Source: Lachnospiraceae bacterium
Lineage (GTDB): Bacteria; Bacillota; Clostridia; Lachnospirales; Lachnospiraceae
NCBI GenBank assembly: GCA_017538995.1
Contig: JAFYHV010000027.1
Span: 1-46,797 of the forward strand
DNA: 46,797 nt
Direction: 5' to 3'
Below the pieces are notes generated by a model that was not told the origin of the DNA, made no database searches, and was given only the letters and a program-made list of their open reading frames with translations. A program made the translations under genes and the position numbers. Shown here one piece after another: positions 19,956-27,717 of the stretch (the first letter of the stretch is position 1; each line of letters starts with the position of its first letter).

Positions 19956-20035
19956 ATTAAATGCGATTCTTTTATGAGGGTTGTAAAAAAACTATTAATG
20001 AGGATGTGCGGAAACGTACAAAAGGAGAGGGATTA

Positions 20036-22153
20036 ATGAATAGAGAAGAAGCAAGAAAAAGAGCAACCGAACTCGTGGAGAAAATGACCATAGAGGAAAT
20101 TGCTTCACAGTTAAGATTTGATGCACCTGCCATCGACAGACTCGGTATTCCCGAATACAACTGGTGGAATGAGGGCCTTCACGGCGTTGCAAGAGCGGGC
20201 GTGGCAACCATGTTCCCTCAGGCAATCGGACTCGGTGCAACTTTTGACGAAGAACTCCTAAAAGAAACCGGCGACGTTATTTCGACGGAAGCCAGAGCAA
20301 AATACAATTTCCAGTCTGCCGACGGTGACAGGGATATTTACAAGGGAATCACATTGTGGTCTCCCAACGTGAATCTTTTCAGAGATCCGAGATGGGGCAG
20401 AGGACATGAAACCTACGGCGAGGATCCTTATCTTATAAGCCGCCTCGGCGTTAATTTTATCGAAGGCTTACAGGGCGACGGCGAATATTTAAAGACCGCT
20501 GCATGCGCAAAGCATTTTGCGGTACATTCCGGACCCGAAGCTTTAAGACACCATTTTAATGCGGTTGCAAACATGAAGGATATGTGGGAAACATACCTTC
20601 CCCAGTTTGAAGCATGTGTAATCGAAGGCAAGGTTGAATCCGTAATGGGCGCTTACAACAGAACCAACGGTGAAGTCTGCTGCGCACATTCATATCTTAT
20701 GGAAGAAGTCCTTCGCGGAAAATGGGGCTTTGAAGGCCACTATGTTTCGGACTGCTGGGCAGTAAGAGATTTCCATGAGAATCACAAGGTTACATCAAGT
20801 CCCGAAGAAAGCGTTAAACTTGCTTTGGAAAAAGGCTGCGACGTAAACTGCGGATGTACATATCAGAAAATAATGGATGCTTACGACGAAGGCCTTATCA
20901 ATGATGAGCTTTTAAAGAGAGCAGCCGTTCGTCTTTTCACGACGAGATATTTACTCGGAATGTTTGATAAGACCGAGTTTGATTCAATTCCTTTTGACGT
21001 AATCGAATGCAAGGAGCATCTGGCAGTTGCTTCACGTGCGACAAAGGAAAGCCTTGTTCTTCTTAAAAACGACGGAATACTTCCGCTTGATAAAAACAAA
21101 ATCAAAAAGATCGGCGTTATCGGACCTAACGCAAACAGCAGAGCATCCCTTATCGGTAACTATCACGGAACATCTTCGAGATATATTACAGTTCTTGAAG
21201 GTATTCAGGATTATGTGGGCGACGATGTGAGAGTATTCTACTCCGAAGGCTGCCATCTCTTCGCGCCCAAGATTGAATTTTTAGGCAAGGATTACGGCAG
21301 ACTTACCGAAGCGAAAACGGTTGCCGCAAATTCTGATGTTGTAGTACTCTGCCTCGGCCTTGACGAAACACTCGAAGGAGAAGAGGGAGATACAGGTAAC
21401 GCATACAGCTCGGGCGATAAGAACGACTTAAAGTTCCCGCCTTCACAGCTTAAACTTCTCGAAACAATTATTGAGATGAAGGTTCCGTTCATTGTTGTAA
21501 CAATGGCGGGAAGTGCCTTAGACTATTCACTTGCGGATGCAAATGCCAACGCGATTGTACAGGCGTGGTATCCCGGCGCAAGAGGCGGTAAGGAAGTTGC
21601 AGAACTTCTTTTCGGTGAATATTCACCTTCGGGCAAGCTTCCCGTAACCTTCTACAGAGACGAAGATCTTAAATGTATGCCTGATTTCGAAGATTATTCG
21701 ATGAAGGGCAGAACCTACAGATATATTGAAAAAGCACCGCTTTATCCTTTCGGATACGGACTTTCTTATGCGGATGTCAAAATTACGGATGTATCTTTTA
21801 AGGATGCAAAGAGTTTTGATGCGGCTTCCAAGGAAGGCATTACAATCTGCGTAAAGGCATCAAACGCAAGCGCAATCGAAACAGAAGACGTACTTCAGGT
21901 TTATGTGCATGTTAACGGCACAAAGGATGAGGTTTTAAATACCAAACTTGCTGCTTTTATGAGAGTAAAATTTGGCGCAAACGAAGAAAAGGAATTTGAA
22001 ATCACCGTTCCTGCATACGCATTTACGACCGTCGACGACAGAGGCACACGAAGCGTTACCGGAAATGGCGCTGACATTTATGTAGGCTTTAACGGCGCTG
22101 ATAAGAGAACCGAAGAACTTACAGGTACTAAGGCAGCAGTGCTTAGTATTTAA
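20036..22153 (+). CDS. GH3 family beta-xylosidase-type glycosidase
   Basis: A 705-residue glycoside hydrolase family 3 enzyme: (alpha/beta)8 domain, alpha/beta sandwich and C-terminal fibronectin-III-like domain (about 600-700). Landmarks are NEGLHGVARAG, FRDPRWGRGHETYGEDP, CAKHFAVHSG and the nucleophile D239 in GHYVSDCWAV. The plant/fungal beta-xylosidase-like sequence and xylan-related neighbours favour xylosidase over glucosidase, but this is inferred. The frame is open from 19961; AAAGGAGAGGG 5 bases before the ATG at 20036 decides the start. No signal peptide, so cytoplasmic. Confidence 0.9.
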   Translation: MNREEARKRATELVEKMTIEEIASQLRFDAPAIDRLGIPEYNWWNEGLHGVARAGVATMFPQAIGLGATFDEELLKETGDVISTEARAKYNFQSADGDRDIYKGITLWSPNVNLFRDPRWGRGHETYGEDPYLISRLGVNFIEGLQGDGEYLKTAACAKHFAVHSGPEALRHHFNAVANMKDMWETYLPQFEACVIEGKVESVMGAYNRTNGEVCCAHSYLMEEVLRGKWGFEGHYVSDCWAVRDFHENHKVTSSPEESVKLALEKGCDVNCGCTYQKIMDAYDEGLINDELLKRAAVRLFTTRYLLGMFDKTEFDSIPFDVIECKEHLAVASRATKESLVLLKNDGILPLDKNKIKKIGVIGPNANSRASLIGNYHGTSSRYITVLEGIQDYVGDDVRVFYSEGCHLFAPKIEFLGKDYGRLTEAKTVAANSDVVVLCLGLDETLEGEEGDTGNAYSSGDKNDLKFPPSQLKLLETIIEMKVPFIVVTMAGSALDYSLADANANAIVQAWYPGARGGKEVAELLFGEYSPSGKLPVTFYRDEDLKCMPDFEDYSMKGRTYRYIEKAPLYPFGYGLSYADVKITDVSFKDAKSFDAASKEGITICVKASNASAIETEDVLQVYVHVNGTKDEVLNTKLAAFMRVKFGANEEKEFEITVPAYAFTTVDDRGTRSVTGNGADIYVGFNGADKRTEELTGTKAAVLSI

Positions 22154-22224: not shown

Positions 22225-23118
22225 ATGGGCAAAAAGAAAAAGAGCGAAAACGAACCGAATATTGAAGAGAAAATAATCCCTGAAGTAAAAGAGCAGGATA
22301 AAAAAGAAGAACCTGTAGCAGAAGAGAAGACTGAAAAAGAAGAACTCCCGAAAGAAGAGTTCGATGAATTCGAAGGCTTAACCGACGCAGAAAAGCTTCT
22401 TTTAGCAAAAGAAGAGCGTTTCCTTGACAAAGAAGAGGAAGAAGAAGTCGAGGAAGAATTGGACGATTCGGCCTGGGGCAATTTTAAAAGGAAGATAGGA
22501 TTCTTTTTGGACTATTACAAATGGTTTGTAATTATTCCCGCAATCATCATCGTAATCACTGTAATTATGATTACTTCTTATTTAAATGAAAGCAGGGAAA
22601 GAGCGCTCGAATTAACCATTACAAATGCTCAGTATGAAATTCCTGACCTGATGTACGCCGTAGAAAATGATTTTATCGCGTATACCGGCGAAAACATTAC
22701 GGGCGATGATATAAGAATAGTGTATGATATTCGTTATCCCGATACCTCAACGGGAGCGGAAAACTTCACTCAGGCAGATAATGTTTCAATGCAGAAATTC
22801 AATGCCAGCGTTATTTCGGGCAGAGTTGATATCGCGCTTACGGAGTCCTGGGTTGTAAACGATTATTCCGTGACGGACTCCACACTGGATTTGAGGGAAA
22901 TATTCGATGAAGATTTCTTAAAAGACCATGAAGACAAGGTTTATTACGCCAGAGATTCATCGGGAGAGAAGATTCCCGTGGCATTTTATATTGATGCTAA
23001 GGTCGTAAAAGATGTATATCCCGAAGATGCAGAACCCCTTGCGGTTTCCTTTGATACTTCCAAACATAAAGAAGAAGCCAGACGTTTTATGGAGTGGCTT
23101 CTTTCTGAGAGCGAATAA
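22225..23118 (+). CDS. Single-pass membrane protein with charged cytoplasmic tail, unknown
   Basis: A 297-residue protein I do not recognise. Residues 1-90 are very rich in Glu and Lys (disordered or coiled-coil-like), a single transmembrane helix lies at about 97-118, and the rest is an extracytoplasmic domain of about 175 residues with alternating beta/alpha character resembling a truncated substrate-binding domain (ends in EARRFMEWLLSESE, as in many sugar-binding proteins). It starts 71 bases after GH3 with no strong ribosome site, and is convergent with YesL. A link to sugar sensing or uptake is possible only by context. Confidence 0.65.
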   Translation: MGKKKKSENEPNIEEKIIPEVKEQDKKEEPVAEEKTEKEELPKEEFDEFEGLTDAEKLLLAKEERFLDKEEEEEVEEELDDSAWGNFKRKIGFFLDYYKWFVIIPAIIIVITVIMITSYLNESRERALELTITNAQYEIPDLMYAVENDFIAYTGENITGDDIRIVYDIRYPDTSTGAENFTQADNVSMQKFNASVISGRVDIALTESWVVNDYSVTDSTLDLREIFDEDFLKDHEDKVYYARDSSGEKIPVAFYIDAKVVKDVYPEDAEPLAVSFDTSKHKEEARRFMEWLLSESE

Positions 23119-23137: not shown

Positions 23138-23848
23138 TTAAATAATAGGAAGATCGTCATCAGGATCTTTTTCTCCGTCGAGAAGTTCACCATTCTCGGC
23201 GGATTCTTTTTCTTCGGGAAATTCGCTGCCCATGACTTTAATGAATATTCTTCTGTAAAAGATGCAGAAGAACCATGCCAAAGCTGCAATGCCGAAGAAT
23301 AATAATACTGAAACGACTATAGCTTCGGCTTTGGCGGATAAGTCAGCTATTAAAAATAAGAAGATGTGGATAACGAACACCATTCCTATAACAGGAAAGT
23401 TAATAAAACTCAGAATAGCAGAGTTTTTGATTATCTGGCGTGTGGGCGAGTTAAAAAGCGCCATCTGCGGGAAAACAAGCACTGTCACCCATAAAATAAT
23501 GAAAAGCGCGATAGAAACCGGATACTGTAAAAATCTGTAAGCCTCCGGCAGAATGTTATGCGAAATATAAACATCGGCTGCAAGGAAAGCTACTATTAAA
23601 AAGAAAGGAATCCAGAAAAGTGTTGCCTGCTTGAAATTGGATTTGAATTCCGCAAAGTAAGTTTTACCTATTTTAACGTCCTTGCCTCGGATTCTTTTGA
23701 AGAGAACAGCATAAAGAGCAGTGGCTGAGGCGCCGATCGTAAAAATCGGAATGCTGCATATAAGGAAAAGGATATTTAGATACATAAGGTCGCATAAAAG
23801 AGTGAGCGCCTTAATTAATAAACTGTCCGGTGAAAATATATTTCTCAT
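23138..23848 (-). CDS. YesL family protein (DUF624)
   Basis: A 236-residue membrane protein of the YesL/DUF624 family: the N-terminal pattern with Asp/Leu-rich first helix, PIFTIGASATALYAVL, then five or so transmembrane helices and an acidic C-terminal tail. YesL proteins accompany YesM/YesN regulators and oligosaccharide ABC importers; their precise role is unknown. TAGGAG lies 8 bases before the ATG. It is divergent from the importer at 24192. Confidence 0.85.
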   Translation of the reverse strand: MRNIFSPDSLLIKALTLLCDLMYLNILFLICSIPIFTIGASATALYAVLFKRIRGKDVKIGKTYFAEFKSNFKQATLFWIPFFLIVAFLAADVYISHNILPEAYRFLQYPVSIALFIILWVTVLVFPQMALFNSPTRQIIKNSAILSFINFPVIGMVFVIHIFLFLIADLSAKAEAIVVSVLLFFGIAALAWFFCIFYRRIFIKVMGSEFPEEKESAENGELLDGEKDPDDDLPII

Positions 23849-24191: not shown

Positions 24192-25673
24192 ATGAAAAAA
24201 TTTATGGCTTGTGCTTTAAGTACATGCATGGTTGCTGCAACAATCGTTGCTTGTGAACCTACCACAACTACTACAACTACAGATCCGGCTCCTTCAACAG
24301 ATCCCGCTCCTGCAGTTACCTCAACAGATCCCGCTCAGACATTTGAGCCTATCGCTGCTCCTACAGACGGTACATACGGTGATTGGGCTATCACAGAGTC
24401 TCCCATCGGTTTCTTCTGGGGTGGTACATGGGTAGTTTCCAGCCAGGCAGCTGTTGATGCTGGCAAGGCTGATGGCGTTAAGGCTATCATGGAATACATC
24501 ACACTTGATGATTCTGAATCAGGCCTTCAGTACGCTTGGGCTAACGGTACATTCAACGTATCAGACGATGTTGACCTTGAGAACATCAAACCCGCTAACG
24601 GTGGTAGCAAGGGTACAATCGAACTCTGGAACTTCACAAACGAAATTCCTAAGATGATTTATCAGTACGTTCAGGATCATCCTGATTTTGATTACAACGT
24701 ACATGTAACAATCAAAGGTACTGGCGACGGATACCAGGATGCTCTTGACCAGGCTCTTATGAACGGTCAGGTTGACGTTTATGGTTGTGAATCAGCTTTC
24801 GTTCTTAAGTATACACAGGGCGATATGGCTAAGTTCGCTGCTCCTTACGAATCACTTGGTATCGACGCTGCAGCAGCTACAAAGGCAGCTGACATCGCTG
24901 GCTACACAATTGATATCGGAACAAGACCTTCTGATGGCAAGTTAGTTGGTTTAGGCTATCAGGCTACAGGTGGTGTATTTATTTACAGACGTTCAATCGC
25001 TAAGGACGTTTGGGGTTCAGATGATCCCGCAGTAGTTAAAGAGAAAATCGGTGGCGGTACAGGTTCATGGGATACATACTGGGCTGCAGCTGAAGAACTT
25101 AAGGCTCATGGCTACGGCATCTGCTCAGGTGATGGTGATATGTGGCACGCTATCGAGAACAGCTCTGACAAGGGTTGGATCGTAGACGACAAGCTTTACA
25201 TCGATCCTAAGAGAGAAGAGTTCTTCGATATCTCCAAGAAGCTCAAAGACAACGGATATCACAATGATACTCAGGACTGGGGCGATGCTTGGTTCGCAGA
25301 TATGAAGGGTCAGGGCGAGAAGCAGGTTCTTGGTTTCTTCGGTCCCGCTTGGTTAATCAACTACACAATGCTTGATAACTGTGGTAATAAGCCCGAAGGT
25401 TTAGGCTCCGCTGGTGACTGCGTTGCTTCCGGTACAGTTATGGCTAAGTCAAAATCTGCACCTGAATTCTTAGGTGGACAGAACATGTTTGACGTATTCG
25501 TTCCCGCTAACGCTTTTGCAAACGGTAAGAACCTCACTCAGTACGATGAGAAGATCAACAACATCTTCCGTGATAAGGTTCGTGAATACACAGCTGGTAA
25601 CCTTTCTAAGGAAGAAGCTATCGAAGCATTCAAGACTGACGTTAACGAGCAGTTAGGTATTGCTATCGACTAA
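24192..25673 (+). CDS. Oligosaccharide-binding lipoprotein with rearranged segment order
   Basis: A 493-residue extracellular solute-binding lipoprotein (lipobox IVAC, C21; then a low-complexity Thr/Pro/Asp linker to about 58). Residues 141-408 run as an ordinary binding protein of this type from its first strand (GTIELWNF) to GPAWLINY (385-392). The segment GDWAITESPIGFFWGGTW with the following helix (about 61-125), which in related proteins comes after GPAW, is instead at the N-terminus, and residue 409 jumps to the late C-terminal part DCVASGTVMAK. Codon use is highly biased, suggesting abundant product. It presents sugar to the two permeases downstream. Confidence 0.85.
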   Translation: MKKFMACALSTCMVAATIVACEPTTTTTTTDPAPSTDPAPAVTSTDPAQTFEPIAAPTDGTYGDWAITESPIGFFWGGTWVVSSQAAVDAGKADGVKAIMEYITLDDSESGLQYAWANGTFNVSDDVDLENIKPANGGSKGTIELWNFTNEIPKMIYQYVQDHPDFDYNVHVTIKGTGDGYQDALDQALMNGQVDVYGCESAFVLKYTQGDMAKFAAPYESLGIDAAAATKAADIAGYTIDIGTRPSDGKLVGLGYQATGGVFIYRRSIAKDVWGSDDPAVVKEKIGGGTGSWDTYWAAAEELKAHGYGICSGDGDMWHAIENSSDKGWIVDDKLYIDPKREEFFDISKKLKDNGYHNDTQDWGDAWFADMKGQGEKQVLGFFGPAWLINYTMLDNCGNKPEGLGSAGDCVASGTVMAKSKSAPEFLGGQNMFDVFVPANAFANGKNLTQYDEKINNIFRDKVREYTAGNLSKEEAIEAFKTDVNEQLGIAID

Positions 25674-25837: not shown

Positions 25838-26815
25838 ATGAAAAGAAAAAAGAGTTATGATTATGCAAGATTTGGCTACATATTCAGTATTCCCTTTGTT
25901 CTTGCCTGGTTAGTTTTTCAGTTATACCCTATTCTTTATACACTCCTTTTAGGTTTTACTGACCTTAAGGGTGCCGGCAACACTGATTTTAATATCATGT
26001 GGAGCGAACCTTTTAAGAACTTTATCACCGTTCTTAAAAACAAATCATTCAAAATTGCATTCGGTAATACCCTTATTATCTGGGGCTTGAACTTCGTTCC
26101 TCAGATTCTGCTCGCTTTATTAATCGCTGCTTGGTTTACCAACAGAAGATCTACAATTAAGGCTCAGGGTATTTTCAAAGTATTATTCTATCTTCCCAAT
26201 ATTATTACACAGGCAACTGTAGCTATGTTATTCTTCCAGTTGTCACTGTATCCTAAGGGAGTTCTTAACGATTTACTTTTGATGTTAAAGATAATTAAGC
26301 AACCTGTTGATATGCAACGTATTGCTAATGTCGCAAAAGGATTCGTTATCTTTATTCAGACATGGATGTGGTATGGATATACAGCTATCGTTCTTATATC
26401 CGGCGTCCTTGGTATTTCACCTGAATTGTTTGAAGCTGCCGAAGTTGACGGTGCAAACCAGTGGCAGACATTCTTCAGAGTTACAATTCCCAGTATCAAG
26501 ACAATGTTGCTCTTTACATTGGTTACATCACTTATCGGTGGTTTGAATATGTTCGATATTCCTAAACTGTTCTTAAACGGTGGACCTAACAACGCAACAC
26601 TTACCACTTCATTATATATTTACAACAAAGCTTTCCAGGGTGGTTATCTCTACGGCGAAGCTTCCGCAGCGAGTATGATTATGTTCTTTATTATCGTATT
26701 CCTGTCATGTATCGTATTCTACCTGTTACGTGATAAAGACGAAGTTGAATTAAGACGTCTTGTAAGAAAGCAGGAAAAAGAATACAAGAGAAAATTGAAA
26801 ATGAGTAAAATGTAG
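25838..26815 (+). CDS. Oligosaccharide ABC importer permease (UgpA/LplB type)
   Basis: A 325-residue inner membrane permease with six main transmembrane helices. The EAA loop that docks on the ATPase is visible as EAAEVDGANQWQTFFRVTIP (about 203-222). CGAGGAGG stands 8 bases before the ATG. It pairs with the next permease; no ATPase gene is present, so a shared MsmK/UgpC-type ATPase elsewhere is presumed. Substrate inferred as xylo- or related oligosaccharides from the neighbours. Confidence 0.92.
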   Translation: MKRKKSYDYARFGYIFSIPFVLAWLVFQLYPILYTLLLGFTDLKGAGNTDFNIMWSEPFKNFITVLKNKSFKIAFGNTLIIWGLNFVPQILLALLIAAWFTNRRSTIKAQGIFKVLFYLPNIITQATVAMLFFQLSLYPKGVLNDLLLMLKIIKQPVDMQRIANVAKGFVIFIQTWMWYGYTAIVLISGVLGISPELFEAAEVDGANQWQTFFRVTIPSIKTMLLFTLVTSLIGGLNMFDIPKLFLNGGPNNATLTTSLYIYNKAFQGGYLYGEASAASMIMFFIIVFLSCIVFYLLRDKDEVELRRLVRKQEKEYKRKLKMSKM

Positions 26816-26832
26816 GAAAGGAGGAGAAACAT

Positions 26833-27717
26833 ATGTCTAATAATTCTAATTTACAATTAACTGTAGAAGGAAGAGAAAAAGGCAAAGGCGGAGTAGTTCA
26901 GAAAATTATTATTTACATTGTAAGTATTACACTTTCAATTTTAAGTATACTTCCCTTCTGGTTGATGTTTGTTAATGCTACCAGATCAACTCCTCAGATT
27001 CAGTCGACAGCGATTTCATTCCTTCCTTCGACACATTTGTTTGACAATATTAAGATTCTTTCATCCAAGAATATGTTCAAGCCTTTGAAAGGTTTCCTGA
27101 ACTCCTTCATTTGTGCAGGCGGTTCAACTATTCTTGCTGTATACTTCTCGTCATTAACAGCATATGCACAGGTTGTATATGAGTGGAAATTGAGAAATGC
27201 ATTCTTCTCATTCATTATGGCGATTATGATGCTGCCCGGACAGTTAACATTGATTGGTTTCCTTCAGATGTGCTACAAGCTTCATCTTACAGATAACCTC
27301 TTAATGCTTATCATTCCTGCAATCGCAGCACCTTCAATGGTATTCTTCATGAAGCAGTACCTGCATCCGGCACTACCGATTGAAATTGTTCACTCGGCGC
27401 GTATCGACGGTGCAAGAGAGTTTTACATCTTTAACAAGATTGTACTTCCCATCATGAAACCCGCTATTGCTACACAGGCTATTTTCGCTTTCGTAGGTAG
27501 CTGGAACAACCTCTTCACTCCTATGGTTCTTATCAACAGTACCAAGAAGTATACAATGCCCATGATGGTAAGTTTGCTTAGAGCTGATATCTACAAAACA
27601 GAGTACGGCTCAATTTACGCAGGTCTTACACTTACGATTTTACCTTTGATTTTAGTTTACATCTTCTTATCAAAGTACATCGTAGCAGGTGTTGCTCTCG
27701 GTTCAGTAAAAGGTTAA
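26833..27717 (+). CDS. Oligosaccharide ABC importer permease (UgpE type)
   Basis: A 294-residue permease with six transmembrane helices; the EAA-like loop is VHSARIDGAREFYIFNKIVLP. AAAGGAGG lies 8 bases before the ATG, 17 bases after the first permease gene. It is the second half of the heterodimeric channel for the binding protein at 24192. A bidirectional terminator follows. Confidence 0.92.
   Translation: MSNNSNLQLTVEGREKGKGGVVQKIIIYIVSITLSILSILPFWLMFVNATRSTPQIQSTAISFLPSTHLFDNIKILSSKNMFKPLKGFLNSFICAGGSTILAVYFSSLTAYAQVVYEWKLRNAFFSFIMAIMMLPGQLTLIGFLQMCYKLHLTDNLLMLIIPAIAAPSMVFFMKQYLHPALPIEIVHSARIDGAREFYIFNKIVLPIMKPAIATQAIFAFVGSWNNLFTPMVLINSTKKYTMPMMVSLLRADIYKTEYGSIYAGLTLTILPLILVYIFLSKYIVAGVALGSVKG

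Follow-up and report, generated by a model that had tools for sequence, protein, structure and literature searches.

Does the sugar-binding protein gene in this stretch of DNA carry one of its internal segments in a place where most of its relatives do not, and, if so, did the segment move in the genome or only in the assembly? We addressed this in the window, by which we mean the whole 46,797-nucleotide stretch analysed (contig JAFYHV010000027.1 of GCA_017538995.1, from a Lachnospiraceae bacterium). Positions 24192–25673 on the forward strand translate as a single open frame of 493 amino acids, whose product is a putative sugar-binding protein (SBP) of an ABC importer that would bind its ligand and deliver it to the adjoining permeases. 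We divided the protein into the segments A to D (Table 1). Unpermuted relatives begin at B, directly after the signal and linker, and hold C between B and D, as does the known SBP CebE, whereas in the window protein C stands ahead of B; the canonical B-C-D order is thus absent, and the order is C-B-D. From the letters of the DNA, the first-pass annotation had proposed that the piece missing on the C-terminal side is the one found on the N-terminal side, and this was borne out: within the one frame, C precedes B and GSAGD continues directly into C410-VASGTVM. The residue numbers given there were correct to within a few positions, except that GPAW lies at residues 384–387 and not at 404. The first residue of GTYGDW is 60, that of FFWGGTW 74 and that of QYAWA 113; TIELW, the start of the core, lies at about 142.

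Table 1. Features of the SBP gene and of its neighbours in the window.
Feature	Residues	Position (strand)	Basis or remark
GH3 glycosidase, xylosidase-like, syntenic		19961..22153 (+)	PF00933/PF01915; best NCBIfam matches are xylosidases, below curated cut-off
DUF624 membrane protein, syntenic		23138..23848 (-)	PF04854; adjoins permuted and unpermuted genes alike
Segment A: signal peptide and Thr/Pro-rich linker	1–59	24192..24368 (+)	Translation
Lipobox-like ...IVAC in segment A	Cys21		Putative lipoprotein, by eye
Segment C, relocated: GTYGDW...FFWGGTW...LQYAWANGTF	60–121 (about)	24369..24554 (+)	Order in relatives, invariant residues, pLDDT
GGTGATTG, left end of relocated C, codes for Gly-Asp-Trp		24378..24385 (+)	
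New linker NVSDDVDLENIKPANGGSKG, from C to first core strand	122–141	24555..24614 (+)	
Segment B, core, ends GPAW...GSAGD	142–409	24615..25418 (+)	Segment scan
GGTGACTG, scar at former site of C		25413..25420 (+)	
Segment D, C-terminal part CVASGTVMAK...GGQN... and stop	410–493	25419..25673 (+)	
ABC permease 1 (BPD_transp_1)		25838..26815 (+)	PF00528; NCBIfam MalF/UgpA-like matches below cut-off
ABC permease 2 (BPD_transp_1)		26833..27717 (+)	PF00528; NCBIfam UgpE/GlcU-like matches below cut-off

We scanned all frames of 112 loci for segments B, C and D. These loci came from the window's own genome, from a search of 195 genomes (29 loci; matches in 87 genomes, with loci taken for the best only) and from the best 80 of 225 relatives, the two lists overlapping in genomes. 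Among these best-match loci, 110 of the 112 held segment-bearing frames, 111 in all: 90 had the order B-C-D, 18 C-B-D, two C-B (both ending at a contig end) and one B-C without a detected D. When identical copies, the two C-B frames and the B-C frame were left out of the count, 84 non-identical genes with B-C-D faced 10 with C-B-D, and relatives with a different, non-rotated segment order are therefore present. The first-pass annotation had called the change an in-frame segment transposition and not a simple circular permutation, and these counts, along with the gene neighbourhoods common to both forms, agree with it. A simple circular permutation, with rotated termini, was rejected, since the signal and linker and D stay at both ends and only C has moved. 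Homologues with the same order as the window protein were found, yet these too are without C at its old place, which supports the transposition reading.

Within the genus, a match spanning C, the linker and B occurred in 11 of 31 genomes, among them a far paralogue (G010:C79) and a copy cut by a contig end (G014), and a B-C-D gene appeared as two separate strong matches in five of the 31, G010 included. In a family sample, 90 of 397 genomes matched, and identity was high through C and B only in the window's own genome; weak matches crossed the junction in G342 (28% identity, query 1–102) and G440 (29%, query 37–110, with three stops). The nearest unpermuted genes, L083 and L042, show 74–81% core identity to the window protein and occupy the same locus, and the permuted gene of G029 (L012/L041) is 61% identical to it.

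The window gene adjoins two binding-protein-dependent permeases (PF00528 twice, 25838–27717). The gene order AraC-GH3-unknown-DUF624-SBP-permease-permease-MATE was found at permuted (L033–L036, L038, L040 and L041) and unpermuted (L042 and L083) loci, and the loci L037, L039 and L109, which are shorter, show this order over the part they cover, with the AraC gene undetected in L039. That the same gene order surrounds both forms shows that the permutation took place in situ. Genes of families GH39, GH43, GH3, GH16 and GH5 (Pfam) lie around the importer, and these, together with the xylosidase-like character of the GH3 product, suggest that it probably takes up oligosaccharides derived from xylan or beta-glucan. 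The WGGTW and GPAW stretches are conserved in the window protein, a putative sugar binder. Neither Pfam nor NCBIfam gave an SBP family model for the window protein or for the unpermuted proteins L083 and L109, nor did Pfam for L047; the Pfam matches on these proteins were few, below threshold and unrelated. Also within the window, positions 22225–23118 encode a protein of 297 aa whose N-terminal part is acidic and which has, by eye, a likely membrane helix. It matched no Pfam family at E ≤ 1e-5, and its position beside the importer is kept at permuted and unpermuted loci.

In the unpermuted gene L083, GGTGACTG stands exact on either side of C, and the stretch from NC to GD is equally long in both forms (NCGNKPEGLGSA-GD in the permuted form, NCGGSAVGEGTF-GD in L083). 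In the six other unpermuted genes for which both flanks were compared, the repeat is shorter than 8 bp (GACTG in L042 and L016) or there is none. The moved copy retains (E)GTY before GDW, as unpermuted genes do; it therefore holds residues from the left of the repeat, which fits copying followed by deletion better than cut-and-paste. Clean excision of C as a circle and its reinsertion was judged less likely for the same reason. We infer that C was first copied into the N-terminal linker, giving A-C-B-C-D, and that the old C would then have been lost by deletion between short direct repeats like GGTGACTG. A deletion between repeats of the L083 type would leave just what permuted genes show, an NC-to-GD stretch of unchanged length followed directly by CVASGTVM. 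The A-C-B-C-D intermediate, in which C is duplicated, was seen in 0 of the 111 frames. GGTGA(T/C)TG had been reported at both breakpoints at first pass and is indeed present there (Table 1). The window holds four copies where 1.66 would be expected, and four occurrences were reached in 10 of 100 shuffles, so that little can be concluded from its presence alone; the word codes for the conserved Gly-Asp of GDW and of GDC.

It is also conceivable, though rather unlikely, that the whole gene and not C alone was copied, in tandem, and that three deletions then reduced A1-[B1]-C1-[D1...A2]-B2-[C2]-D2 to the present order. Tandem copies do occur in this SBP family, as the family member G114 has two adjacent B-C-D SBP genes (L027), 54% and 48–49% alike to the window core. 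Two forms once lying side by side may also explain why permuted and unpermuted genes interleave on the trees described below, and why G010 has an unpermuted gene along with a permuted paralogue. This route, however, requires that three deletions all be in frame, and no remnant of D1/A2 is shown in the linker, where there is only a weak 25-nt repeat of 72% (24591–24615 against 25503–25527). We favour the copying of C by itself, followed by deletion of the old copy.

A tree of six neighbouring genes from 17 chosen loci branched in the order L041 (permuted), L083 (unpermuted), L038 (permuted), L042 (unpermuted) and the rest (permuted), and on it a single permuted clade was rejected (p-AU 4e-5). 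Support was strong for the forks around L083 and L038 (100/99) and weaker for those separating L042 (87/87 and 83/90). In a tree of the SBP genes themselves (10 permuted genes and 22 of the 84 unpermuted ones), the main permuted genes grouped with L014 and the pair L013/L083, and the permuted L012 fell outside; a single permuted clade had a p-AU of 0.065 with L014 and of 0.032 without it. L013 and L042 hold one and the same gene, and so do L012 and L041; the branches of L012 and L014 on this tree are long. For the L012 gene (L041:5001–6473, in G029), the SBP tree gives a branch length of about 0.95 changes per site, far above the 0.21 of its locus on the neighbour-gene tree.

These p-values speak for the permuted order having arisen more than once, which we nevertheless consider improbable, as the distant permuted genes share details of junction and scar that are absent from the unpermuted genes compared: in L041, in L014 and in the main permuted genes, PANGG or PENGG stands ahead of GTI, and CGNxPE ahead of the scar. 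The PANGG-KGTI linker is common to the window protein and the distant L041, and is less close in L014. From a single origin one would expect the carriers to make up one clade; as the two forms interleave, such an origin rests on the common junction and scar, and it would require that one form later replaced the other, that the order reverted or that paralogues were lost. Most likely, the order had one origin, after which the two forms coexisted or were exchanged by gene conversion or by replacement through homologous recombination; their interleaving on the locus tree is not fully explained. G010 fits coexistence of both forms: its operon holds an unpermuted gene (C84, the contig from which L083 comes), and a permuted paralogue, now decayed, lies at another site (C79). 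Tentatively, we suggest that canonical and permuted forms have been swapped or recombined in one operon slot within one genus, by way of a two-copy intermediate and with possible changes in hinge opening and uptake.

We also asked what the move would mean for the protein. Forty unpermuted relatives, selected out of 70, share 132 invariant residues; the window protein keeps 130 of them, including 19 of 19 within C, and in the other two cysteine replaces alanine (199) and histidine replaces lysine (306). AlphaFold2, given an alignment of permuted genes together with 29 unpermuted genes split into three segments, returned a model of mean pLDDT 85.4 and pTM 0.82 (75.4–85.4 in pLDDT over five models), with block means of 85–98 for residues 61–120 and of 92 and 94 for the linker, and with pLDDT below 50 for residues 1–47; the unpermuted L083 reached a pLDDT of 91.0 and a pTM of 0.88. 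These confidence values carry the caveat that AlphaFold2 may recall the SBP fold. Mapped residue by residue, the secondary structure of the permuted and L083 models agreed over 95% of B (268 residues), 95% of C (63) and 97% of D (86), so that, on the structure prediction which the first-pass annotation had proposed as a check, C takes the same secondary structure as in an unpermuted relative, with high confidence. An alignment that mixed whole unpermuted proteins with C fragments gave low identities, which points to mis-seated fragments, and was left unused.

The AlphaFold2 model and Foldseek together predict a two-lobed SBP fold for the window protein. At E ≤ 0.001, Foldseek returned 53 PDB matches for the permuted model and 745 for the unpermuted one, with oligosaccharide-binding SBPs found by both; for 5IXP, the permuted model gave a TM score of 0.70 (rmsd 5.4) and the unpermuted model 0.82 (rmsd 3.5). 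We take Foldseek comparison to be bound to sequence order. Weaker scores should be expected of a permuted chain, and a poorer model would lower them too. The case is a warning that order-bound comparison loses score on permuted proteins.

With a profile of the 40 unpermuted relatives, CebE (8BFY) was the sole PDB chain at E ≤ 1 (6e-13), and it was also the best Foldseek match by E-value for the L083 model. The window sequence alone had no SBP match (best E 0.29), and a comparison of the unpermuted profile with E. coli MalE by hhalign gave no significant match (probability 0.3%). CebE, from Streptomyces scabiei, has in common with the window protein the predicted fold, the three-hinge two-domain plan and the PAW/PPW and WGG stretches; 5IXP, GltA and 6H0H are other oligosaccharide-binding SBPs that were likened alongside it. 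In its passages on the domains, PMC10714786 gives domain 1 of CebE as residues 62–176 and 330–386, domain 2 as 177–329 and 387–454, and the hinges as 176/177, 329/330 and 386/387, and the authors assign the protein there to cluster B-type. A passage of PMC13084667 describes the same discontinuous domain plan for TdCIBP, of cluster D-I.

Aligned to CebE, hinge 1 falls in the window protein on the two glycines of QATGG (residues 260–261) and hinge 2 on the FF of FFWGG (74–75); hinge 3, just past VMAKSK at about 422–423, was carried over by eye, with a 6-residue alignment gap there. Three elements make up C on this mapping: the final strand of domain 2 (GDWAITESP), hinge 2, and the larger part of domain 1's second half. 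The chain would therefore run from the domain-2 strand through hinge 2 and the second half of domain 1 to the linker, then through the first half of domain 1, hinge 1 and domain 2 to the old site, hinge 3 and the end of domain 2. Attached through the new 20-residue linker, the moved C would fill its former place in space, so that the usual two-lobed shape is still predicted to form. The move brings the two main halves of domain 1 next to each other in the chain by way of the linker and puts a domain-2 strand at the start of the folded chain; residues 410–422 have stayed where they were, ahead of hinge 3. The changed lobe connectivity that had been suggested at first pass follows from this mapping. 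The idea that lobe crossovers had been cut from three to one was rejected, because C takes a domain-2 strand and hinge 2 along and leaves 410–422 behind; depending on where 410–422 are counted, the crossovers number two to four.

For seven permuted pairs chosen among the eight main permuted genes (with L041 and L014 left out), dN/dS was 0–0.15 in C, 0.02–0.11 in B and 0.13–0.28 in D, and these C-B-D pairs are under purifying selection. Synonymous divergence together with low dN/dS means that the order is old enough for synonymous change and has been kept by selection. A recent pseudogene or broken gene was rejected in view of the full open frame and the low dN/dS. We then weighed whether C at the N-terminus could be a separate extra domain or a linker, with its old place in the fold empty and the function changed or lost. 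The far paralogue L014 has lost binding motifs (FFWGGTW to FYTGGSL, GPAW to GDSR), but in the window protein C keeps all of its invariant residues, purifying selection acts on C, and its predicted secondary structure matches that of the unpermuted form in a model of high pTM, which makes such a reading very improbable. The possibility of an assembly or binning artefact, raised at first pass, in which a usual gene was misassembled into an unreal order, is negligible: G000 is a draft of 173 contigs and many relatives are metagenome assemblies, but the same junction is present in the 11 genus genomes, which come from different projects and one of which matches a record that does not bear the label of a MAG (Lachnospiraceae bacterium G41, L033), the distant G029 gene has the same order, dS among permuted genes reaches 0.57, and dN/dS is far below 1 in all seven pairs. 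The window gene is very probably a natural non-circular permutation, in which C was relocated within the genus while, as modelled, the usual two-lobed fold was kept and its lobes were rewired.

Natural within-domain permutations are mostly known between distant relatives, with the path of change lost. Here, unpermuted genes of such high identity at the same locus leave the junctions legible, and folding, hinge motion and transport could be compared in a matched pair. This rewiring inside one genus, close to unrewired relatives, is what makes the permuted SBP notable, and if the reading of two interchanging topologies is true, the rewired lobes may affect hinge opening and uptake. The domain dislocation between type I and type II SBPs resembles it in that there, too, the order of a segment has changed with respect to the fold; that dislocation is ancient and inferred from folds, whereas the window permutation lies within one genus. 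DNA methyltransferases are an example of non-circular permutation, their order being altered without rotation and the places in three dimensions kept, in a fold that differs from that of the window SBP. Non-circular permutations are reported, in a passage of PMC10085705, to be rarer than circular ones, and among the matches listed in the open-access literature on permuted or dislocated proteins we found no report of one in an SBP. A natural change of topology in an ABC substrate-binding protein is on record for TpMglB-2 (Tp0684), a circularly permuted glucose-binding SBP that, according to the relevant parts of PMC4990184, keeps fold and binding, has four lobe crossovers and is 13% identical in its permuted part to the E. 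coli MglB counterpart. The termini of TpMglB-2 are rotated, whereas in the window protein, the fold of which is predicted, an inner segment has moved between fixed ends and same-locus relatives are 74–81% identical in the core.

SBP segments also turned up in longer proteins. In G010, of the same genus, L141:8656–10959 encodes a protein of 767 aa that has a zinc ribbon, weak TPR-like matches and, by eye, a membrane helix, and its C-terminal side is a C-B-D SBP with decayed binding motifs; it may be a sensor that evolved from the permuted SBP. In another genus, L172:777–3728 (G103) and L173:811–3150 (G481) are lipoprotein-like frames in which a B-C-D SBP is fused behind another domain.
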